A DNA stretch of 64,000 nucleotides from Echinarachnius parma. Taxonomy: Eukaryota > Echinodermata > Echinoidea > Clypeasteroida > Echinarachniidae. The stretch spans positions 1 to 64,000 of the forward strand of contig JBAMJV010004364.1 of the NCBI GenBank assembly GCA_037951105.1, written 5' to 3'. Made by a program: the position numbers and the translations under genes. Under the pieces are notes generated by a model. The model did no database searches, had not been told where the DNA came from, and saw only the letters and a list, made by a program, of their open reading frames with translations. Positions 955 through 50,000 of this stretch are shown here, one piece after another (position 1 is the stretch's first letter; the number at the start of each line of letters is the position of its first letter).

Positions 955-1160
955 ATGCCCTTATTAAACACGTAGTATAAATTAGTATGTCCTAGTCTAG
1001 GCGATTGGTGCGAAAATTGCTCGGAAAATGATACAAGTATGAAATGTTCTACACATGTAGGTCTCATCATTCTAAGCATTTTCAGAGGTGGAGCCAATGC
1101 AAACGGTACATAGTATAGCAACGGTTGCTAAGCAACGTATTTTCCATAGCAACCAACATG
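955..1160 (+). repeat. Left terminal inverted repeat of the 4.86 kb element
   Basis: Pairs with 5610-5812 in inverted orientation, with small gaps. It ends in the first GCAACGGTTGCTAAGCAAC motif. Confidence 0.72.
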
Positions 1161-1460
1161 TAAGATGCCTATAGACCAATTTTTCCGAACAATTTAATGT
1201 ATTTTAATATCTGCAGCTTTGCTCTTCATCATAACACCACCCTGGAGCAATTGCAATATACACATCATAGCAACAGTTGCTAGGCAACACATTTTCCTTA
1301 GCAACCAAGCAAATTTGATGTTTGCAGACCAATTTTACTAAACATTATAATGTATTTCAATATATATTGCTTTACTATGCATAATATATTCACTCTGAAG
1401 CAAAAGGCCACCCCACAGTGCACATGGCTTTAAAATGGTTGCTAGGCAACGCATTTACCT
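1124..1460. repeat. Left subterminal GTTGCTAGGCAAC-type repeats
   Basis: Three units: around 1124 (GGTTGCTAAGCAACGTATTTTCC), near 1270 (AGTTGCTAGGCAACACATTTTCC) and near 1438 (GGTTGCTAGGCAACGCATTT). Each near-palindrome is followed by a similar T-rich stretch, and the first two then by AGCAACC. Regular subterminal motifs are commonly transposase binding sites. The core also resembles the metazoan RFX X-box consensus (GTTRCC-RGYAAC). Function is inferred. Confidence 0.65.
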
Positions 1461-1509
1461 GATTGTATCAACATTTGGGCTTTTCTAACCTGTCAACTAT
1501 TGTTGGCCA

Positions 1510-4025
1510 ATTTTTGACTTACTGAATGTAGGTGCGTAGGACGGTGTGTACCCATGCTCCCCTACGAGAAATCCTGCTCTATTCTGATCTATCCTGGGCT
1601 AGATGTTCTACCTCATGAATGGATAGACCCATATCGCACCTAACTTGGTCCTTCCATCTCGTAGGAGGGCGTCCCCGTGGTCTGCGTGCGTCAAAGTAAT
1701 TATGGTATGCTTGGTATGGTAGGCGGTGATGCGGCATGAGTACCACATGGCCAAACCATTTCCGGCTACGTTTTGTTATTTCTTCACATATGGTGCTTGG
1801 GATGTTCAGCCTCTGTCTGATCTCTTCGTTTCTTATTCTGTCCATTAGGTGAACTCCAAGAATGGTCCGGAGGCATCTCATTTCAAATACCTCAAGCTTA
1901 CATGTAGATCTATCTGATTTACGGAGGGTCCAGGATTCTGCCCCATATGTGTCAATAGGGAGGATCAGGGCTATGTAGATCCTGACTTTGAGTGTCCTTG
2001 AAATATCTTGGTTGGACCAGATGGCACTTTTCAGCCTTCCAAATGACCAGTCTGCCAGTCTTGTTCTCCTCTTCACGTCATCTTCTATAGAAGGTACCAT
2101 GCTGCCGAGAAAGACAAATTTATCCATTTTCTCGATGTTGGTGTTGTTTAGTGTAATAACTTCTTGATCCTCTGTCATGATTCTGCATTTCGTGGCATTG
2201 ATTTTCATTCGTCAACTTCTACATGCCTTTTCCAGTTCCCGTGTAAAGATTTGGAGGTTTTCAAATACAAGTTCCATGAGGGTGGTGTCATCTGCATAAC
2301 CGATGTTGTTAGTACGCATGTCACCCATCTGTATTCCACTGTCTACTTTTTGGATGTCATTCATCACAAATTCCAGGAATGGGTTAAAGAGGCTTGGAGA
2401 GAGGAGGCAGCCTTGTCGAACACCAGTCATGACATCAAACCATTCGGTTATCTTACCGTTAACCATAACAGAGCAGTTGCTTTGCTTGTACATGCTCTCT
2501 ATAAGCTCGACTAGGGACTTGTCCACACCAATGGAACGTAAACATTTCCAGAGAGCTTCTCTCCAAATAGTATCGAATGCCGCTTTAAAATCAAATGTCA
2601 AGTGGATTGGTATCTTTCTTTCTCTGGCCTTTTTGATGATCTGTCTGACGACAAACACAGCATCTGTGGTGCCTCTACAACTTCTGAACCAGCATTTTTC
2701 CTCAGTCAGATGGTTCTCAATGGTTCCCTGTATTCTCCTGAGGACCATCCTACAGAATACTTTCCCAGGTATGGAGAGCAGTGTTATAGCCCTGTAGTTG
2801 GATGGGTCCAGCTTGTCTTCTTTCTCACTGGAGTGATGAGACCCTTGCTCCAGTCTTCCGGGGTTTTACCTTCCAACCATGCTGCATTTATTAATTTGAG
2901 CAGGAGTAGTCTCGTCGGCTGTCCACCAGTCCTCAGGGTTTCGGCCGCTATTTTGTCCTAACCACAGGCCTTGTTGTTCTTCAACAGTTTTATTGCTGCC
3001 TCTACTTCTTCAATTGTGAAAGGTTCATTTGGGTTATCTGTAGGTTGAGGGTCAGGTATGGTCTGAAGAGTATTTCGACCCTTGGAAATTCCGTGTAAAG
3101 GTGGCCGCTAAAATGTTCTTCCCAGCATTTCAACACTTCTGCAGGAGCCGTTTTAAAGATGCCGTCCTTGTTCTTTACGGCAGGTTGCATCTTGTCTCTT
3201 TCTCCAGATAGTTTCTTAACCTTCTTGAAGAGCTCATGGATGTTGTTCTTTGCGTGAGCAATCTCCATTTCTTCCACCTCTGCGTCAAGAATTTTCTTCT
3301 TCCAATTCTTCACTTCATACTTGACCGTTTTATTGAGTTTTTTGTAGCTCTTCTTGGTGTGGACAGAGGGATTGTTCATCACCAGGATTCTGGCTTTCCT
3401 CCCTTGTTCACACACCTTACAGACATCTTCTGGGCGACCTTTAACTTGTTTTGACCTTTTGAAGCCTACAACTTCTTCTGTGATGTTATTGGTAGTATCC
3501 CTGAATTGCTTCCACAGCTCATCTGCATCCGTGTCCTGAAGCTGAAGTTGTGGTTCAAAGGCACCTCCAATCCTGGCTTTAAATGCTTCTGCTATGTTAG
3601 AGTCCTTAAGTCTGCCAACATCGTAGCTTTTGGGAAGGCTCTTCATTCGCTTAGACTTTGTAGGTGATAGCTTTACATCTGCCAGTACTAGATTGTGGTT
3701 TGACCCAACCTCTGCTGAGCAGTATGATCTGCAGTAGGACTTGATGTTCTCTAATTTGGTAATGATGAAGTCTATCTGATTTATGTAATGTCCACACGGG
3801 GACGTCCATGTTGCCCATTCTTATATTCCTACATGTTCCTACATTCTTTGTGTTGGAAGTATGTGTTACACACTGCCATTCCGTGTAACATACATAATTC
3901 TAGAAGCTTCTCCCCTCTGCTATTGAGCTGTCCTAGTCCATACTTGCCCAAAGGTGGTGCCCATACTCCGTGGTCCGCTCCTACTTTTGCATTGAGGTCA
4001 CCCATCACAATTTTTAGAGAACAGT
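1510..4025 (-). pseudogene. 5'-truncated LINE (non-LTR retrotransposon) ORF2 remnant
   Basis: Read from 4025 down, this encodes the end of an endonuclease domain (GDLNAKVGADHGVWAP near 4000-3950). A linker follows (3646-3002). Next is a reverse transcriptase with fingers/palm blocks such as FDFKAAFDTIWREALWKCL, GVRQGCLLSPSLFN and the catalytic YADD (in IGYADDTTLME) at about 2740-2290. Last is the C-terminal region ending GRPPTRWKDQVRCDMG (2208-1579). The frame breaks between about 3002 and 2748 and near 2210, and a TAG replaces the usual Trp codon near 1580, so it is dead. The upstream half of the endonuclease is missing, as in typical 5' truncation on insertion. The layout suggests an RTE-like clade, but the clade is not certain. 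It lies inside the 955-5812 DNA element, opposite to that element's ORF. Confidence 0.85.
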
Positions 4026-4165
4026 AGTTGTCATGATATAGAAGTTTAAATGTATGTATTTAGTTATAGTTACTGAGGTCACTTATTAAACTTAAATAAT
4101 TGTGAGTCCATACTATAGGAATATTATGGTATTAAGTATCGTATAAATAACCCCCTGCATCAGCA

Positions 4166-5041
4166 GAGAACCCTCTTGTCACCGATGGTGCTAATGTACT
4201 CTGTATACCTGCACGAGACACATCCAGCATTACTCCCTGCAACCATGAATAAGCAGATTCCAGGATCATGGTACATGTTGCCGATGCTGTCAGACAGGGC
4301 TTTCACAAGATCCTTGTTCGGACAGTAGATACTGATGTACTTGTGTTAGCAGTAGCAACTGTACAGCAGATAGGAAGGATAGACCTCTGGATCGCATTCG
4401 GAACTGGCAAGAACTTTCACTACATCCCGGCTCATGAGATAAGTGCCTCCCTTGGCCCACAAATATCGTTGGTTCTTCCGGTGTTTCGTGCTTTCACGGG
4501 CTGCGACACTGTTTCCCAGTTTGCCCAAGTTGGAAAGAAGACTGCATGGAAAATGTGGGAGACACATGATGAACTCACTGGAGCCCTGTATGAGCTGCAC
4601 TGTGCACCAGATCAGATATCTGAAGAGACTGAGGCTGCCCTAGAATACTTCACCATCCTTCTCTATGATAATACAGCAACATGTACCTCCATCAACGAAG
4701 TCAGAAAGCTTCTATTCGCACGAAAAGGGCGTCAGATGTCAGCGCTTCCCCCCACCAAGGCTGCATTACAGCAACATATCAGAAGGGCAGCATTGCAAGG
4801 TGGGCACCATTGGGGACGTACTACTATGCCATATCGCCAGATGCCCTCCCCTTCTGAGTGGGGATGGACTTGCCCAGAACAGTGGAGACCCCTGTGGACA
4901 AACTTACCTGAAGCATGCGCATCCTGCCCAGAGCTGCTGAGGTGTCAATGCAGGAGCAGGTGTAGAGACTGCAAATGTGTACGAGCGCTCTTAAAATGCA
5001 CTGTGTATTGCACATGCACAGGAGATTGCGACAATGCCTGA
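4166..5041 (+). pseudogene. Decayed FEN1/PIN-like nuclease-type ORF with Cys-rich tail
   Basis: An open frame runs from 4268 to a TGA at 5039-5041. The same frame continues upstream to about 4166 through one stop: ITPCNHE-stop-ADSRIM, where the Glu codon of an expected NHEEADTR motif reads TAA (4246-4248). I recall this family as uncharacterised, multi-copy proteins in many invertebrate genomes. Three acidic blocks are visible: (E)AD before 4268, VDTDVLVLAVA near 4330 and FTGCDTVSQF near 4495. Their order and spacing resemble the EAxA, SDD/DTD and GxD motifs of XPG/FEN1-type PIN nucleases; that link is my inference. The C-terminus is Cys-rich (CQCRSRCRDCKCVRALLKC and on), like a CXC zinc-binding segment. 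Upstream coding sequence is absent, and the LINE lies about 140 bp before the frame begins. It is probably the element's own protein gene, now inactive. Confidence 0.7.
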
Positions 5042-5660
5042 AACTATGATCAATGACTTACGACTTCATGGTGAGAACATGTATTGTTAAGACAATCCAT
5101 CTGTCCCAAAATAGCTGGTTGCTTCCATGAATGTATTGCCTAGCAACATTGTTTCAATTTGATATGGGGTATCATACCATAAGTAACCCTGGCTTACTAA
5201 TTACCTTGCCATAGGCCTTATATTGACAAGAAAATTGTTTGAGTTAAATGGATACCATGTGAAGTGATTGTTTTCATGTGTACACAGCTTGTTGCTATGG
5301 TAAATATGTTACTAAGCAACTGATTTTTTTATATTATTTACCAATTAACCTTCATAGCAGTTGAAAACATACCCAAATATTTCTCTGTTAGCTGTTTTAG
5401 GCAGTGAGACGTGAAAAATCATTTACAAATAGACAATTACGATAACAAATATACAGTCGTTATGGTTTATCTGTTGCCTAGCAACACAACAATTTTGTTT
5501 TGTATTAATATTGAAACTTAAAATGACAATATAGCACGTCTTTAGTTAGTTTTGATGCTAAAACACATAGCATCATGCTTTTGGAATGAATAAGATATGC
5601 TTAAAAGGCTCGTTGCTAGGGTCAATAAGTTTCTTAGCAACCGTTGCTAAGAAACAGGCC
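5042..5660. repeat. Right subterminal GTTGC/GCAAC repeats
   Basis: Motifs near 5138 (TTGCCTAGCAAC), 5305 (TTACTAAGCAAC), 5473 (TTGCCTAGCAAC), 5610 (CGTTGCTAGG) and 5636-5655 (TTAGCAACCGTTGCTAAGAA). They mirror the left subterminal set in inverted order. No gene is seen in this stretch. Confidence 0.6.
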
Positions 5661-5812
5661 GGATGCATTGGCTCCACCTTTTAAAATATTCAGTATAGGC
5701 TCAATTATAACTGTACCAAGTTTCATACTTGTATCATTTTCCGAGCGATTTTCGCCTTTTTTTGCACCGATCGCCTAGACTATCCCTACAATACACGTTT
5801 AATAAGGGCGCG
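5610..5812 (-). repeat. Right terminal inverted repeat of the 4.86 kb element
   Basis: Inverted match to 955-1160. The outer end reads TTTAATAAGGGC. Confidence 0.72.
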
Positions 5813-6060
5813 CGTATGACGGGCCAATAGTTGTATAGTTTCCTGCGCCCCGATTGGTCAAAACCGTACATCTACACCGTGGATGTATCGATGTATAGTT
5901 GTACATACTTATGTCATGTTTGGCCCGTCATATACGCGCGCGATAATGTCCTTCTTATCATGCGTATGCGCGGTGATTATGCATACGAAATCGGCTCATG
6001 AAAGGGCGATATGCAAATCGCCCTTTTATACATGCGCACTTTGGACTTTGCTTTGCGCGT
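5811..6060. mobile_element. Small palindromic insertion between direct AATAAGGGCG repeats
   Basis: AATAAGGGCG occurs at about 5801-5810 and again near 6061-6070. The DNA between contains paired arms (GCGCGTATGACGGGCC near 5811 against GGCCCGTCATATACGCGC near 5923). It also holds a second hairpin (AAAGGGCGATATGCAAATCGCCCTTTT near 6001). The 10-bp direct repeats could be a target-site duplication at the very edge of the larger element. Confidence 0.4.
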
Positions 6061-7048
6061 AATAAGGGCGATGTAATAAAAGTTCATTTTCTTCGTTTTA
6101 AAACATAGATTTGACCTGTAAACCAAACACGGCGTTTATTTCTTATCACTTCATCATGTATTAAGCACACAACTTAATTTACTCATAATATATGAAATAT
6201 AATGAAAATTTCCTTTACTTGTAAAAAAAACATGTATCGGTTTTTGCTATCGATAGCGTCATAATGCCCTTTCATTTGCCGACCGACGATTAAAGAGCCA
6301 TGCATATCTGCAGGTGCCGCCCTATAGCGGAACTTTTTTTTTCTAATCTCCAATTTTGTTCTGGGAAAACCATTAAACTGTACATGTATTATTGTCTTTC
6401 ATTGAGAAGGTATCGTTATCTGTTTCTGAATAATATGATGACTATTTTCATGTAAAATATATGCTTAAGTCAAGTTACTGTAAAATTAAAATTGTTTGCC
6501 CTGCATGGTTAAATATTGTATATGTTTTATTGAAGTATTTATATTCATGCATCCTTTGTTGGTGAAGATTTCAATTTCATTTTCGTTTATTTAACCATAA
6601 AATGAATAATACATGCCCATGAGTATACATCACAAATAACATGATATGGTAAGGTATGATATGATATTGCTTGTAGCAGGGGCCTTAAAAAGAAAACTAC
6701 ACATAATTAATAAAGCATGTTTTCAAATCACATGATACAAACACACATACACACATAAAGTATACATTCACCTCTGCTCAAACCTTTTTTTTTACATAAA
6801 TCAAATTATTTAATTTATTGTATTATTATATCATAATTATACTTCTTTTCTTCTTCGCTGCCCTCTGATTTCGTTCCTCACAAGTATATATACTTGTGAG
6901 CAAGAGAATGATGTTGTTATGAATGTTCATTTACTCATCAGTTTTTCGACCCGAAATAAATATAACTTAAATATGAATTCAATTTTGTGCGCATAAACGG
7001 TTCCTTGTGAATGTGAATTGTAGGATAAAACAAATTTAACATTAATGT
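6061..7048. other. AT-rich spacer
   Basis: No gene is seen. The only structure noted is a short perfect palindrome, CACAAGTATATATACTTGTG, near 6881-6900. Confidence 0.5.
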
Positions 7049-8442: not shown

Positions 8443-8868
8443 ACACGAATGTGCGAGTCAGCAGAATAATGGTCCCATATAGCTAACCATGATGGCAATT
8501 CTTTTGACCCAAAGCATAAAGAAAAATAAGGGGAAATCCTTTTTAAATCAAATAATTGTATACGTTCTCCCAAAATTAATACATTGAAAAGTACCAGTTA
8601 TATCGAAAATACGAAGCGAAGTGCAATGGAGTCATAATGATGATACACTATATCAACATTTTCAGCTGCTTGATTTACTGTAGTTAAAACAATAGTAACA
8701 GAAACGTATTTTAGGAAATTGAAATATAAAGAGCTGCAATCATGGTCAAATTCAGTTTCGGTTTCAAATTCCAAGGCATCTGACGTTTGACCTTCTCATT
8801 ACTATTGCAGTTTAACATGTGATTGCCAAGATTATTTCGAATTTTGTTTGAGATGAAACAAAAACCCA

Positions 8869-16126: not shown

Positions 16127-16683
16127 TTAAAGGGATAGTTGAGTTTTGGTATAGAGGGCACTACACAAACATTTATTTGGTGAGATAATGAAAAACTGAG
16201 TGTCAAATTCGAAAGAGCATACAATTTTAATGACAGAATAAACTTTATTTGGTCAAAATCGGTTCAGAAATGGGTTATATATACATAAACGTAACCATTT
16301 GTAATAATTATGGGGCCCCACAATTATTAGATAATTTTGAAATAGCCGTTAAAAATGTTTTTAAAATGCTTCCTCTTTTAAAAAGATTATAAAAGAGATT
16401 TTTAAATAGTTGTTGATTATCTCTCTATCTAACCACTCTATCTAATGTCAACAAAACATTGCATACTAAATTGGTTAAAACCAATGAGTGTTTAGAGTTT
16501 TGACTGCTCTTTTTGAATGATAACAGGCTTTTTACTTAGTCATTTGTAATTTTGTATTCATTTCGAGCATGGTTTAGTTATTAATATTAGTTTGTAATGG
16601 TTTTGGTTACTAAAATTCAGTTTGATCAAAACTGAACTCTCTTTACCAAAACTCAACTACCTATCCCTTTACTATCCCTTTAA
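16127..16683. mobile_element. MITE family A, copy 1 (TTAA target), inside LINE
   Basis: Ends TTAAAGGGATAGTTGAGTTT and ACTATCCCTTTAA. Removal with one TTAA joins SMV to KARSV in one frame. About 555 bp, palindromic at the ends, non-coding. Confidence 0.88.
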
Positions 16684-17942: not shown

Positions 17943-18354
17943 CAGCAGATTTGAAAGAACGATCACTTAGGAGAGAAGTTTATTTTTGATGAGTTTTAAA
18001 AACCTGCCTGTATGCAGACTACTTGAAGACTACCGTGTAACTAAAAAAGAAAACATTTTTTTAAAGATATGAAGGTAATTGGAAAAAAAATATTACTTTT
18101 TGGTGTCACATTGAAGATAAATAGCCAGACTGCATAATGAATTTATTTCAGCTTATTGGGGTTTGTCAATCGTGATAATATGGTCGATTGTTTGCAGCAC
18201 ATCGTAATGCACATTGAAATCCACATTGTATTGCTACAAACAATCGATTTCGAAGCGGTCTTGCCCGAATGTTAACTTTAACAGATACGTTGTGATAATA
18301 TGGTAGATAATAAAAGCGTATATTTATTTTGTTTGTGTGTGGGGGCGTTTTCCA

Positions 18355-25903: not shown

Positions 25904-34553
<8,650 letters not shown>

Positions 34554-35379: not shown

Positions 35380-36531
35380 TTAAAGGGAACCAACAGGCAA
35401 AAAGGATATTCTTATTAAGTAACGGTGATTGTTTAAGAAGTACACCTCACCAACAAGTTCTGAAAAATAGTTTTCCAGACAAATTATATAATTGGAGAAC
35501 TCATCACCATACTTAGGTATGTTTGCATGGGTCTGCAGAAGAAGACTATCTATTGTCTAGGACGTAAGCGTCTTCCGTGGTTCAATTGTCTCCAAACGTA
35601 CACGGGCGTTTGGCGCATACGGAACCATGAGGCCCTGTTGGTTATGTATGTGTTGGTGATTAATTGTATTGTTAATGAATTACACAACCCTTTGTAAAGG
35701 GTCAGACATCTATACTACGCACAAAAAGTTCCGCAATCGAGGTTTGTGCATTAATAACTTTTCTATTAGGTTATTACCATTGGTAAATTTGGTATCATTG
35801 GAAAGCGTGAATTCTCCCCGTTACATTGACATAACATTTGCTATGAGTATTTCATCATGGAATGTGCATTGCATCCAAATGTAGGGCAAAGTCAAAAGTG
35901 AAATGTTGCAAAATGCACTGATTCTGTCAACAAAGGGCCTTCCTTTTGTTTGAAGATTAAAATGTGGCTTGAATGCCTATTACGTTATTACCATTCATAA
36001 ATTTGGTATCATTGGAAAGCGTGAATCCCCTCTTTACATTGATATAACATTTGCTATGGATATTTTATCATGGAATGTGCATTACATCCGAATGTAGGGC
36101 AAAGTAAAAAATGAAATGTTGCAAAATGCACTGATTTTGTCAACAGTGTGCCTTCCTTTTGTTTGAAGATTAAAACGTGGCTTGAATGCATGACCACATC
36201 ACCCCCATTCAAGCCAAGGAATGCACTCTGTTGACAAAATCAGTGCATTTTGCAACATTTCACTTTTGACTTTGCCCTACATTTGGATGCAATGCACATT
36301 CCATGATAAAATATTAATAGCAAATGTTATATCAATGTAAAGAGGAGGATTCACGCTTCCCAATGATACCAAATTTATGAATGGTAATAACGTAATAGGA
36401 AAGTTATTAATGTGCAAACCTCGATTGCGGAACTTTTTTGTGCGAGGTATATTTAATATCAAACAACGATATCCAAAAAGGCAAACATAATAATAAGCCT
36501 GTGTTATTTTTTGCGTGGTTGTCCCCTTTAA
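35380..36531. mobile_element. MITE family F4, copy 1, split by a TA-flanked palindrome
   Basis: TTAAAGGGAACCAACAGG at the left and GTGGTTGTCCCCTTTAA at the right. Inner words (CATGGGTCTGCA, ATTGTCTCCAAACGTACACG, ATACGGAACCA) match 44097-44508. The element is interrupted at TA by 35713-36449. Confidence 0.8.
35713..36449. mobile_element. TA-flanked palindromic element with a tandem duplication
   Basis: TACTACGCACAAAAAGTTCC and the inverse of GGAACTTTTTTGTGCGAG form the ends. The left arm is duplicated in tandem (about 210 bp, 35766-35984 and 35985-36192; shared GGTATCATTGGAAAGCGTGAA). TA target and terminus recall Tc1/mariner-type MITEs. Confidence 0.78.
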
Positions 36532-40060: not shown

Positions 40061-41036
40061 TTACGGCATAGCTATAGCGTAGGCTTCATTAGTATTATTA
40101 TCTTCTAGTTTTTGTAACGCGCTACTTTTCGCTTTCTTCGACATAATTCTCTGCTGCAGTGGCCCGCCATCATTGCCGAAAGTTATAAAGTCGCTCAGCA
40201 GCTGTAGTGGTGTTTTGGGGTTGGAAATGGGTCGACCGATCGGTCCGTACGGTCCACCGGGCATCGGTCGCTGCCTCGGCCGGAAGAAAGTCGGGGTTGT
40301 CGGTTGTATGCGAGGCGATAGTGTTGGTACTGGCGGCCGCGCGGGCCTTTGTCCTGGGAACATAGGCGGCCTGGCGGGCCTCTGCCCGGGGAACATAGGC
40401 GGCCTGACGGGCCCCTGCGCGGGGAACATAGGAGGCCGTACGGGCCGCTGACCTCGCATGCCTGGGAACGTAGGCGGCCGCACGGGCGCTCGACCTGCTG
40501 GGAACATTGGCGGGTAAGGCGTGCCCCGCGGCTGTTGTGGCTGCTGTGGCGAATATGGCGGGTGTGGTTGATGTGGTCCGTGCGGATAGTGTGGCTCGTT
40601 CGGCATCGATGGCGCCTTCATTGTCGGCGCCTGCTCCAGCGGCAGTTTGTATTCGCAAAGCGCCGATATGGGCACTTGTGGGTCGAAAACGTCCTCACCT
40701 TCCATCCTCGGCGCGAATCGCCTCGGATCTGTAAGGAACAACGCCGCCCCTTCCCCGAAATCCAGCGGCTCGATCAGATCGATTATCCCCGTTTCCCCGC
40801 TCATCCATTGCAGGCCCGCGCGGCCCGCAACGGGCCTACGTGGCCGGTGCAAACCGATCCAAACCGGTCTAGGCTCGCGCGAGAACCGCGTGATCCAGTC
40901 AAAGATAAAGTTGTGTTCCGTCCAGTCGTTGATGGTGACCAGCCCGGCGCCGATTAGCTCTCGGGCGCAGTCGGCGTGAGCGGCCGCCTGTAAGCCGTTG
41001 GGTGGGAAAGGTAAGCCAAATTTCCTCGGAATGATC
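40061..41036 (-). CDS. Lectin/proline-rich gene, exon 2
   Basis: Encodes the rest of the lectin domain ([10 protein letters not shown] to LCEYKLP), the repeat region ([11 protein letters not shown] units near 40450-40330) and TAA at 40063-40061. Markedly GC-rich compared with its surroundings, as are the other true exons here. Confidence 0.85.
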
Positions 41037-44000
41037 CTGCACATGAAATTAAATAACAAATGAAAATTGCGAATTAAAAGAACGTCAGCTAAAACAAACA
41101 AAACAAAATAAAACAGAAACAGACAGACATCCTTAAATCATAATGACAATTTAACAGGTGCATGATGATTCTCTATCCATCACTCCTTTGAAACGATCCT
41201 GTATGAAAAAAACAAACAATAATATATAACATCGTGACTTCGGCCTCGAACAAAATATTGTTTCGCCTACCTAAGTGCTGGTGTAAGGAATCGATTCCAA
41301 CGAATATTGCCATCCGTGGTCTTCTGAAAATTGATAAGTTCAAAGAAGATTATTGGGCGGAAAGTTGTCCTCTAACTATTTAACACAGTGGCGTAGCCAA
41401 AAACTCTGCAAGGGGGACTCGAACCTGCCAGCGCGTTTAACGCGAACCGCTTCTGATTTGATGGGGTCGCGCCTTAGGGCCCCTGGCGGGGATCCAGGAG
41501 GTGGTCAGAGCCCTCGAAAGCTTTGGGATTTTAGCTTTTGGGGATACTTATAAATAATGTCGGTCCTAGAGGGGGGGGGGGGGGTGGGGCGGCCCAGGAA
41601 CCCCCTCACTTGGCCACTGTTTTTACCCTCTGTCATGTTTAACCACTGACATTTTTTGACAAGAAATATATAGTGATGGCACAACGTGACCATGTTACGT
41701 CAGTGCTTGAGGTTGTGTGCCATATACTTGAATAAAAAAGGCCTCAGAATACATACGGTGCGAATTAAAAAAAAACATGAACAGTATTAAACGGACTTCA
41801 TTGGCCATTTGACATGTAATTTACGCGACAATTACGTCGCGACCACATAACGTGTTAATATATAGCACCAGCGTGACACATTGTAAACCGACGTGACATT
41901 AGTGCGTGACCACGTGACAGCTGTGCCAAATTAATGACAGCTTTGAAAAAGCAGTACGGGTTGGACTAAGGCGTACTCTTTCCACATGTTTAAGTTAAAA
42001 CACCTGTAAATCAATGGACATTAACACACGTCAATGAGAAAACAAGCCGCAGATTAAGTTTAGACCGTCACATGCTATAAGTTGCAATACGTGAGCGGTA
42101 ACCGCAATACTAAGTAGATAATAAACGGAATTACAAAGATTAATAGCAAACATGCGCTGTTTATTGAAAGAAAGAAAGTAAGAGAGTGTAGAGGGGGGGG
42201 GGGGGGGGGTGATGTGGTCCTTGCCAAGAATAGTAACAGTGCAGTGTTATCCAATAAGACATTTCCTCTGTAAAAACACAATTCAGTTGTCCTACGAACA
42301 GCGGAATGACTTTCCACTGGGGTCGACCATAATGAAAATTCAGTTAGTTATGTGCAGCACCCCAAATAAGACCACTTCATAAAACAGTGTTATAAACTCA
42401 TTCCCCTGTAAAAGAACTAAATTGCTTGTACTTGTCCTACAGCGGATTAACTTTTCACAGCGATCGACTATAATGCATAGTAGTCATGTGCATCAGGAGT
42501 GAAATCAACCTAAAATAAGATCACTTAAAACAGTGTCATAAACAAATATTCCTCTGTAAAAGAATTTTCTTTTTTTTTTATTGTCCTACAGCGAAATTAC
42601 TTTGCACAGGGACCGCGACACATTTAATTAGTTATGTACAGCATGTAGCATATAAGCCCCCAAATATGATGGCTTGAAACAGTGTTATGAACACATTTCC
42701 CCTGCAAAAGAACTAAACATATTTTAGTTGTCCCATTGCAGAATACTATTTTGCACATGAGCCGCATCTATGTAATTTAGATTCAGTTAGTTATGTGCAA
42801 CATGTGCGGTATAACCCCCAAATCAGATCAGTTAAAAAATAGCTTTAAATAGCATAATACCCCTTCAAAGTGATCTAGTAACAGTGTCCAAATCCTCAAA
42901 ACTTACTTTGGTATTCTAGCAGTTTTCTTGTTGTATTCGTGTTAACAATAGAAGCATGGGACAGGTTCGGGGTTTTCGAATTTCCCTTTCGTTAAAAAAA
43001 TATTTACGATTGAAGTGTTTGGATTTTTAACTATCCACTGGATAGCCATAACCGTGTAAAAAAAAGTCAGTGCAATGAGTTAGTGAATATCACTTTGCAT
43101 TTTCGCTCATTAAAGGGGTAGTTCAGTTTTGGTATAGAGGGCGCTGCACGAAATAATTTTTTTTGTGAGATAATGAAAATCTGAGTGAAAAATTTGAAAG
43201 AGCATACAATCTTAATGACAGAATAAACTTTATTTGAACAAAATCGGTTCAGAAATGGCTGAAATATCAATAAATATATCCGATCGAAATAAATCTGGCC
43301 CCCTGATTTATTCGATGATTTTCTTTTTTAATTTAAAAAATGCTTACACTTTTTCAAAAATTTGCAAAATAGTTAATGATCTCTCTATTTAATCATTTTT
43401 TCAACAAAACATCACATGCATGATTTTGTATGAAAATGGTTGAAAGCAATGCTTTTTAAATTTGATTCGAATTTATTTCCATATTTCAAAAATAATTTTT
43501 GAACAAGTAAATATACAAACAAACAATATATTCATAAACGAAATACAAAACAAAAAATACACAGAGACTAATATACAATAAATATTACTTAATCAACAAT
43601 TTGTTTATAATTAACGTGAAATATTGGAGAACCAAAAAGAAGCAAAGCTTGTACAAATATTTGGTTCCCAGGGGTAATTGTGTCTTATCAATATTGAAAA
43701 AGAACAAATTTAAAGAAAAAAAGAAAAAGAAAAACAAAAAAAACAATAAAAGAACAAGTTAAAGAAGAGAAGGTGTCATGCCAAATACTAAATATTTTTA
43801 GACCACTATAGACAAGAATGTTACAAGAATATTACAATCGATCCAACCGAATGGCCTTTTTTTTAATGGCCTTTTTTGAATGATAACAGGCTTTTTACTT
43901 AGTCGTTTGTAATTTTCTATACCTTTCGAGCATGGTGGAGTTATAACTATTAGTTTGTAGTGTTATTGTGCAGGTTTTGGTTACTAAAGCTCATCCTTAC

Positions 44001-47000: not shown

Positions 47001-50000
47001 GCCCCTGTCAATCTTTCCCTCTTTCTTCTCCTTACCCCTCTTTTTTTTAATCCCACTTTCGCCCCTACCATGCTTACTCTCTCCATCGATCTCTAGCTCT
47101 CACCCCGTCCCTCTCTATTTCGTTTGTCGCACTATCTAAACATGAACATGAACATAAACAAAAACATGATTATCATAATTATTCCTCCTCTCTTTCTTTA
47201 TTCTCCCTCTCCTCCTACATATCTATCTATCTATCTATCTCTCTCTTTTTTTGTTTGGTATCTCACCCTCTCTATCCTTACCCTGTTAGTCGCTACACAG
47301 ATAACACGGCGTGACATTCATGTTCAAAATCAATCAGCTGGATATTGCATCGATCGTATAACGGAAATGTATCATCTTCATGTTCCGTAAGTGATCATTT
47401 TTAAGCCCCCCGGCTCTGGATCTTTTTATAGTAGATTGTATCATAGCGTATACCTTCCTCATTTGTTGTGATATGAACTTGGATAACATGAACGCGCAAT
47501 GCCCTCTGGGTAATAGACCAATAAGCACGTGCGATGGTATATGAACATAAATAGCGTTTGAACGCACAAAACGGCTGGCGGGAAAAAAGGCTACCCAACG
47601 AGCGCATGCTACTCCTGTGCGTGCTGCTGATGCATCTCTCCCCAAACCAACCTATACATGTTGTTATATCAAACTATTGAATATAATGCTTGTGTCAGAT
47701 AAATTAATATTGCCCAAAGTCCTCGTGTAATGCCAGCCCCGAACTTTAGCCTTGTCCGGCATGTCCGGGGCCCTGTTTCATAAAACTTTCCCAATAGTTG
47801 TATGTGTCCAATTATGGTATACAACTATGGCAACAGCCACTCAGCACCAAGCATTTTAGTTGTTGCCATGGTAGTTACAATAATTGGACACTTACAACAA
47901 TTCGAACAGTTTTATGAAACAGGTCTCTGGATTGGGGGGTCGGGGGGGGGGGGGGGGGGTCAATCTTTCCTTTTGTTATAATATTCAAGCAAGCTGTCCT
48001 GAGATGAACCCAGCAAAACAAATTATTTGTGATACAGATTGTGCCAGCCGTGTAAAGTGTATGGGGACAGGTATGTTATACGGTTAAGATTTTGGTTGGG
48101 TTTGGATTAGGGTGTACGGTTAGTGTTGGGTTGGGGTTATGTTTAGGGCTATGGATATGTTTATGGTTAGGGTTATGGTTTAGGGTAAGTGGTGGGTTAG
48201 GTATAGGGTTAGGGTTAGGTTTTAGGTTTATAGTTAGGGTTATGGTATAGGGTAAGTGTGGAGGTTAGGTTAGGGCTAGGGTTATGTTTATGGTTAGGGT
48301 TATGGTTTAGGGTAAGGGTTATGTTTATTGTTTGGGTTAGGGTATAGGGTAAGGGTTAGGTTTATTAGAGTTATTGGAGGAAGAGTAACACCCCAATTTG
48401 TACCGCAAATACAAATATCCCCCCACTGCCACTGACCGTATACTGCGTAAAGTCATCATTTGCTTATTAATTCATTATATATTTATTCATGTTCTTTTTT
48501 GTTTTTATTGCGAACACGTATGGCAGCAAACAAGCCGATTGCATGTGCTAAACGTTCAATTAAATAAAAAAAAAAAAATGTTATTGATACAAACTCGAAC
48601 CATAATTGCGAAGTTCAAATTACATGTATTACATATATTTATACATTATTTAAAAAATCACATAATAAATGCAAATATTTAAAAAATGTAACTAATTGAA
48701 AGGGGGCTTCAAACATAACATAAAACAAAAATGTTGATGATAAATTACATTTCTTACACTTTTCTAAATAGTTTTCACCGGTATTGACCGCATATTACCG
48801 CAAAACATACCATGTCACCCTTCTCGGGCGCATGCATGCAGCGTTTATCATTATTGACTAAAGATGTCCCAATGTATATTTAATTTCAAATGTCCTCAGG
48901 TATAGCCTTGGCTCCAGATTGGCCTTATTATGTCCTTCCCCCTTGCTAATTGATGTTGAACGTTGGTCTATAAGTAGGTCGCCGGATATGGTCTATTTTA
49001 GAAACGTCTGTCCGTCTGTCTCGAGGCTACGGATGTATCATGCAATGCGATTATGTTACACGTCAATGCATTCGCATCCAGTTCAAGTGCTGTTAAAACT
49101 GAAGAAAAAGGATTTTTCTGTATTTTATTCGTGTTTTGTATGTACTTCTTCAAAGTATGTATTAATATGTTGTACTCTGTAAAACATTCACCGTGTGCAA
49201 GGCGTTCGCAAAATGGCACCACTCGTCTGATTTAATAATAATAATAATAATATACTCGATTCTTATTGCGCCTAATATGATTGATAATCATCTCTAAGCG
49301 AACTATACATTTATCATCGTTGAAGACGATTTGACCTTGGCTAAATTAAAATAAACGAGAAGGTAAACAAACAAACGAACACACACACGCACATATTTAT
49401 GCAAACGTGGCTTGTTGTCAGTCCCCATTTTAACACCAAGTTGCGTTTAAAGGGGTAGTTTCGTTTTGGTATAGAGGGCGCTGTACATCACAATTTTGTT
49501 GTGAGGTAACACAAAACTGAGTGTCGAATTTGAGAGAACATGCAATTTTAATGGCAGAATAACCTTTATTTGGTCAAAATCGACCCAGAAACGGCTGAAA
49601 TATCAATAAATATATCTCATCTTATAATTATTTGGGGCCCAAATAATTAGATGATTTTTTCAAAAAATTTAAAAAAATGCTTGCACTTTTTCAAAAATTT
49701 TCAAAAGCATTTTTAAAATAGTTGTTGATGATCTCTCTATTTAATAATTATTTCAATAAAACATCACATGCATACATTTGTATGAAAAGTGGTTGAAACC
49801 AATGCCTTTTTAGAAAGCGCCCTCTTGTGTTTTAATGGCTCTTTTTGAATGATAACAGGCTTTTTACTTAGTCGTTTGTAATTTTGTATACCTTCCGAGC
49901 ATGGTGGAGTTATAACTATTAGTTTATAATGTTACTGTCCAGGTTTGATTACTAAAGTTCAGCTTTACCAAAACTGTACTACCCCTTTAACCCATTTCAT

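Follow-up and report, generated by a model that had tools for sequence, protein, structure and literature searches.

What kind of mobile element carries, between inverted ends, the remnant of an open reading frame (ORF) with the motif order of a flap nuclease? The question is raised by a 64,000-nucleotide stretch of the Echinarachnius parma genome (contig JBAMJV010004364.1, positions 1–64,000; this whole stretch is called the window here). An earlier note had placed in it, at 955–5812, a possible undescribed type of DNA transposon whose nuclease-like ORF might be the mobility enzyme or a partner of one. The locus was compared with its relatives in the host genome assembly (1.2 Gb, 14,790 contigs). 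With a probability that we put at about three in four, this is a worn copy of a cut-and-paste DNA transposon that is no longer autonomous and belongs, most likely, to the AcademX lineage of the Academ superfamily.

Extent of the element and its target site duplications

The inverted ends are real: a blastn comparison within the window aligned a left end of 161 bp and a right end of 171 bp over 171 columns, with 71.9% identity (E ≈ 3e-22). Their limits lie further in than the 955 and 5812 first proposed, and the transposed unit is 993–5782. When positions 956–1155 were searched against the genome, at least 41 matches were found (40 of 202 candidates scored), and 32 of these 41 began at query base 38, corresponding to window position 993. 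Twenty genome places, chosen by similarity to the left end of the window copy, were then retrieved. All 20 matched the element, and 18 extended to both ends, while the remaining two (L011 and L015) ran off their contigs. The compared copies had only 993–5782 in common, similarity stopping at these two positions, and the termini read TAGTCTAGGCGAT...ATCGCCTAGACTA.

Immediately outside both ends of the window copy is the trinucleotide TCC, a 3-bp target duplication. An exact 3-bp duplication was present in all 19 complete copies (the 18 retrieved ones and the window copy), although one could also be read as 4 bp; L012 and L013 have a common flank, so that the 19 copies represent 18 independent sites. 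The shared ends, unrelated flanks and 3-bp duplications show that 993–5782 moved whole, as one transposed unit, and bear out the proposal of a mobile inverted-repeat DNA transposon. The outer inverted stretch (955–992 and 5783–5812) was rejected as part of the element, since the compared copies end at 993 and 5782; given these shared limits and the duplications, it is therefore target sequence.

Two observations concern the target itself. The flanks at 957–979 and 5787–5809 are inverted to each other (GCCCTTATTAAACACG...), as if the insertion had hit another short palindromic repeat, and GGGCGAT stretches similar to these flanks are found at 5998–6079. A preference for palindromic or hairpin targets was considered and rejected, as the signal was not above background (mean 10.4 versus 9.8, standard deviation 1.7).

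The palindromic subterminal repeats described previously were also recovered, on both sides of the element. Allowing at most one mismatch, GTTGCTARGCAAC gave nine matches at eight places in the window, all within the element; the expectation, estimated with 100 shuffles, was 0.14. These palindromes may be binding sites for the transposase. The features of the element are collected in Table 1.

Table 1. Features of the element in the window.
Feature	Position	Strand	Basis or remarks
Target site duplication, left (TCC)	990–992		Identical to 5783–5785
Left terminal inverted repeat, begins TAGTCTAGGCGATTGGTGC	993–1153	+	Pairs with 5612–5782; genome match starts
Subterminal palindrome GTTGCTAAGCAAC	1124–1136		Motif scan
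Subterminal palindrome GTTGCTAGGCAAC	1276–1288		Motif scan
Subterminal palindrome GTTGCTAGGCAAC	1438–1450		Motif scan
5'-truncated non-LTR (long terminal repeat) retrotransposon	~1546–4009	-	Reverse transcriptase by Pfam, endonuclease tail by eye; limits approximate
Remnant of the element's own ORF, residues 1216–1510 of P0001	4157–5041	+	94.9% identity; in-frame TAA at 4250–4252
Open part of ORF remnant, 262 amino acids	4253–5041	+	D-T-D at 4328–4336, G-C-D at 4499–4507 and VGKKTA blocks; likely XPG/FEN1-like domain
Cys-rich tail	4925–5029	+	Ten Cys present in both P0001 and its paralogue P0002 (37% identity)
Subterminal palindrome, one mismatch	5135–5147		Motif scan
Subterminal palindrome, one mismatch	5308–5320		Motif scan
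Subterminal palindrome GTTGCCTAGCAAC	5473–5485		Motif scan
Right terminal inverted repeat, ends GCACCGATCGCCTAGACTA	5612–5782	-	Holds palindrome variants at 5629–5641 and 5643–5655
Target site duplication, right (TCC)	5783–5785		Identical to 990–992

Copies in the genome

The 19-bp terminus occurs exactly 139 times in the genome (75 + 64), and a backwards control gave no occurrence. Pairing was analyzed for 100 of the 139 places, located on 56 contigs. Among these 100 there were 40 inverted pairs, spaced 4,180–20,792 bp apart (median 5,074 bp), and 16 contigs were without a pair. One contig (G000:C285) has four left-type termini in a single orientation (1115–1133, 8496–8514, 16159–16177 and 18269–18287), with no right end among the places listed; these are perhaps repeated partial copies.

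The aligned copies fall into two groups. When seven copies of each were compared, mean identity between the groups was 98.5–98.9% at the ends, 94% in the left subterminal region and 85% in the right one. Conservation of the ends would be compatible with their use by one common enzyme.

A retrotransposon fragment inside the element

Much of the element is taken up by a fragment of a non-LTR retrotransposon of the long interspersed nuclear element (LINE) type, with a Pfam RVT_1 match at 2212–2865 (E = 2.5e-25); past it, near 4010, the element's own sequence picks up again. The fragment was found in all 20 retrieved copies as well as in L031 and L040, and a private insertion in the window copy was accordingly rejected. 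It therefore entered a progenitor and was then amplified along with the element.

Its presence in every one of these copies could also mean that the element makes use of the LINE reverse transcriptase, which would then not be cargo, and some of the 15 copies that were aligned do retain open parts of the LINE frame: 1582–2211 is stop-free in six, 2212–2865 in three and 3005–3820 in two. However, none of the 15 copies is stop-free over all three stretches, although in the window copy and L016 the sole stop counted in 2212–2865 may be the frame's own terminator. Substitutions between the two groups affect the three codon positions about equally in the LINE (7/7/9, 11/9/13 and 13/7/11), unlike those in the ORF remnant (22/9/34), both sets being descriptive counts, and no LINE match was found in the retrieved parts of the copies with longer ORFs (L030, L032, L035, L043, L048 and L049). 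We consider a working role for the LINE very improbable, and take the fragment as cargo. In L046 (G000:C1409), the ORF is cut at the same residue, 1216, as in the window copy, yet there is no LINE match in the ≈1.25 kb retrieved ahead of it.

The ORF remnant and the full-length protein

The ORF remnant that had been noticed between the ends (4253–5041) is the tail of a longer frame, traceable from 4157. The 262-amino-acid open frame had no Pfam match. In the genome, where 146 of 785 candidates were scored, the ORF family is represented by at least 185 matches with E ≤ 1e-3, many of them broken members, in agreement with the earlier claim that the family is multi-copy. A match on contig C10150, 97% identical to the window ORF, lies within an open frame of 1,517 amino acids. 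This frame (locus L049) is intact and encodes a predicted protein of 1,510 amino acids, counted from the first Met, which we call P0001. Seven other listed open frames of 1,486–1,558 amino acids, making eight with that on C10150, are 40–44% identical to the window ORF, and a 1,522-amino-acid paralogue in L050, P0002, is 37% identical to P0001. Contigs C9119, C13609, C1176, C4327, C10042, C8956 and C852 carry paralogues. These alignments show that the remnant derives from a predicted protein of about 1,510 residues whose frame is intact elsewhere in the same genome.

ORF matches were present in 19 of the 20 retrieved LINE-bearing copies, all beginning at P0001 residues 1197–1285; L011, which gave no match, runs off its contig first. 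Judged by these alignments, the window copy and its LINE-bearing relatives are deletion derivatives. The window copy is unable to make the protein, because the front four-fifths of the frame are absent and an in-frame stop interrupts what is left. Longer pieces of the ORF are kept on nine contigs (C496, C2170, C4269, C6603, C594, C3522, C150, C9929 and C2654).

Further afield, an open frame of 1,631 amino acids (G000:C4547:170816–172396) is 28% identical to P0001 residues 9–504 and perhaps represents a remote branch of this superfamily. In pattern scans, neither the viral contigs of IMG/VR nor the genomes of GTDB yielded a relative.

Association of the ORF with the element ends

The right terminus was found downstream of the ORF in eight of nine places tested (L030 and L049 are the same place), at 732–736 bp from the last codon in seven of them and at 1,199 bp in L040; at L048, no right terminus was found past the ORF. 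On three contigs, longer ORF copies lie between the same two ends as the window copy. The ends at 128297 and 133697 of C496 enclose residues 131–1510, those at 79390 and 84458 of C594 enclose residues 189–740 and the tail, and on C2654, ends 20.8 kb apart enclose residues 221–740 and the tail. Each of these ORFs is broken by stops or frame shifts, and no single copy was seen with both ends around an unbroken frame. The spacing of the right end and the three enclosed ORFs nevertheless establish that the link between ends and ORF holds, in line with the earlier suggestion that the ORF lies between these ends in other copies too. Copies with the same ends, a plain DDE transposase and no ORF, which that note had considered, did not turn up: all 19 complete copies, picked as they were by left-end similarity, hold the ORF or its remnant.

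Taken alone, the window copy would also be compatible with an ORF that is a host gene, or belongs to a host gene family, and that an unrelated inverted-repeat element happened to pick up, the more so as the element also carries a captured LINE. The near-fixed distance between the ORF and the right end in seven of the nine places speaks against this, as do the longer ORF copies between both ends and the multi-copy nature of a family with many broken members, and we regard chance capture as hardly credible.

A probable nuclease-like domain at the C-terminus

The C-terminal part of the protein has the blocks EAD, DTD and GCD...VGKKTA in P0001 and EAD, DSD and GCD...IGKRTA in P0002, giving five ordered acidic positions and a V/I-G-K-K/R-T-A block. 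Among the residues invariant between the two proteins are E1248, D1250, D1274, D1276, D1333, G1342 and A1346, together with ten Cys in the tail. E-A-D, D-x-D and G-C-D stand in the order found in XPG, FEN1 and EXO1, as first noticed from the window remnant, and the conserved G and A follow the GCD aspartate at distances of 9 and 13 residues, as they do in the typed EXO1 and FEN1 sequences. The element's domain differs from these nucleases in being fused to an upstream part of about 1,100 residues and to the Cys-rich tail.

A profile built from a reduced set of sequences, with typed human EXO1 at its head, matched 37 columns at the GCD block when compared with residues 1112–1510 (score 34.7, P = 0.0007, probability 26.5%). 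Column shuffles of the same residues reached at most 23.8 (n = 150) and 33.1 (n = 1,000), so that the real score exceeds all 1,150; the reversed profile scored 17.9 and three other segments of P0001 no more than 17.3.

Several results weigh against an XPG-like domain in an Academ-type transposase, and we give them together. A probability of 26.5% over 37 columns is weak in absolute terms. Against the whole of P0001, the EXO1-led profile scored 35.1 (P = 0.0027), again with an absolutely weak probability (11.3%), and an earlier, FEN1-only profile of 81 sequences (archaeal loci and two typed ones) scored 27.3 at the GCD block (E = 0.028, probability 1.8%). The EXO1-led profile was built after the motifs had been spotted by eye, and it is the only profile to which the shuffles apply. 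Counterparts of FEN1's two N-terminal acidic positions were not identified in P0001. Pfam XPG_I matched neither the 262-amino-acid frame nor the full-length protein, and no XPG or transposase match was found in Pfam, NCBIfam or PDB sequence searches. Genome-wide, XPG_I matched 12 places, eight of them over the cut-off, none overlapping a listed ORF-family match; a single contig, C3695, has listed matches of both kinds, about 153 kb apart. In the middle of the protein, candidate DDE residues were picked by eye from 46 invariant Asp, Glu and His in residues 400–1000. Lastly, the intact copy on C10150 has the right end, and its contig stops before the left end. Set against the absence of a Pfam or PDB match, the motif order and profile scores thus make a C-terminal XPG-like domain likely, though unproven by sequence.

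Two XPG_I matches over the Pfam cut-off, at G000:C1038:64626–64871 and G000:C2467:153684–153932, lie in open frames of 481 and 480 amino acids, apart from listed element-family matches.

Classification and proposed mechanism

According to Repbase and Kojima's 2020 account, AcademX reportedly encodes an XPG nuclease that goes with a Cys-rich finger, and Repbase reportedly gives a Cys8 zinc finger for Academ. Academ is a recognized superfamily of eukaryotic DNA transposons (PMC4455052) and appears in a list of superfamilies that have DDD/E transposases (PMC9587614); target duplications are 3 or 4 bp in AcademX and 9 or 10 bp in AcademH, and are related to the encoded nuclease and helicase (PMC10045372). 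The element described here resembles AcademX in its terminal inverted repeats with an ORF between them, its 3-bp duplications and, probably, its nuclease-like protein part. Truncation and the LINE fragment set the window copy apart. AcademH, a sister lineage in the same superfamily, has a helicase and the longer duplications (PMC10045372), whereas our element has duplications of 3 bp and no Pfam helicase match. KolobokE, KolobokD and KolobokP are likewise DNA transposons in which a DDE transposase is accompanied by an accessory nuclease (PMC9587614), but their nucleases are lambda-exonuclease-like, DnaQ-like and of the His-Me finger type. Since 3-bp duplications and a nuclease are published AcademX traits, the element is most likely a member of this known kind, placed by its duplications and nuclease-like part as they compare with the published description, and the claim of an undescribed transposon type is not supported.

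An undescribed superfamily apart from Academ, with the XPG/FEN1-like nuclease itself as the mobility enzyme, would explain why no family model rises above its cut-off anywhere in the full-length protein, and the only recognizable set of catalytic motifs is indeed the C-terminal nuclease-like one. We nevertheless consider it unlikely. The combination of 3-bp duplications and an encoded nuclease is already on record for AcademX (PMC10045372), and the many invariant acidic residues in mid-protein could form a DDE core. Nor does retention of the tail in truncated copies argue for it: the tail was kept because the deletion took the front, so its retention does not reflect selection. A related proposal, in which a non-Academ lineage transposes, with 3-bp duplications, by means of a single ~1,510-residue protein in which a FEN1/EXO1-like flap nuclease serves as catalytic partner or strand cutter, appears quite improbable to us.

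Under the AcademX assignment, the full-length protein of about 1,510 residues would be the transposase, and the nuclease-like ORF, which the earlier note had seen as a possible mobility enzyme or partner, becomes one part of a larger protein that probably also holds the transposase core. Cys and His residues near the N-terminus that are invariant between P0001 and P0002 (17, 20, 30, 79 and 82; 133, 136, 161, 187 and 190) form clusters that, together with the Cys-rich tail, might provide the binding to the GTTGCTAGGCAAC palindromes and to the ends. The central region, where invariant residues include D479, D482, D656, E689, D872, H873, H875 and E876, may hold an RNase H-fold DDE core (candidates D479/D482, D656 and E876, chosen by eye); the one Pfam signal there is a sub-threshold DUF6589 match in P0001 (E = 0.035–0.08), with none in P0002. 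Such a core would cut the ends and carry out their joining to the target, staggered by 3 bp. A role for the XPG-like domain could be the trimming of flaps or of the second strand while the element is excised or the gap repaired. Truncated copies, including that in the window, would have depended on full-length copies for their movement in trans.

Other features of the window

Elsewhere in the window, three open frames were assigned by eye. That at 29377–29877, on the minus strand, looks like another LINE fragment, that at 32938–33417 like an exon of a subtilisin-like protease, and that at 40061–41137 like a C-type-lectin-like proline-rich protein. A 213-bp unit is present in two tandem copies, 90% alike, at 35763–36189, and a telomere-like GGTTAG repeat array at 48094–48364 is internal to the contig.

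Significance

One genome combines several intact frames, each about 1,500 residues long, with precise ends, subterminal palindromes and a non-autonomous partner family. This makes it practical to ask in E. parma why a transposon carries a flap-nuclease-like domain. It can also be asked here whether the shortness of the 3-bp duplication is connected with the nuclease-like domain, a link that PMC10045372 suggests for the difference between AcademX and AcademH. The LINE, amplified within a DNA transposon, provides a small example of cargo capture.

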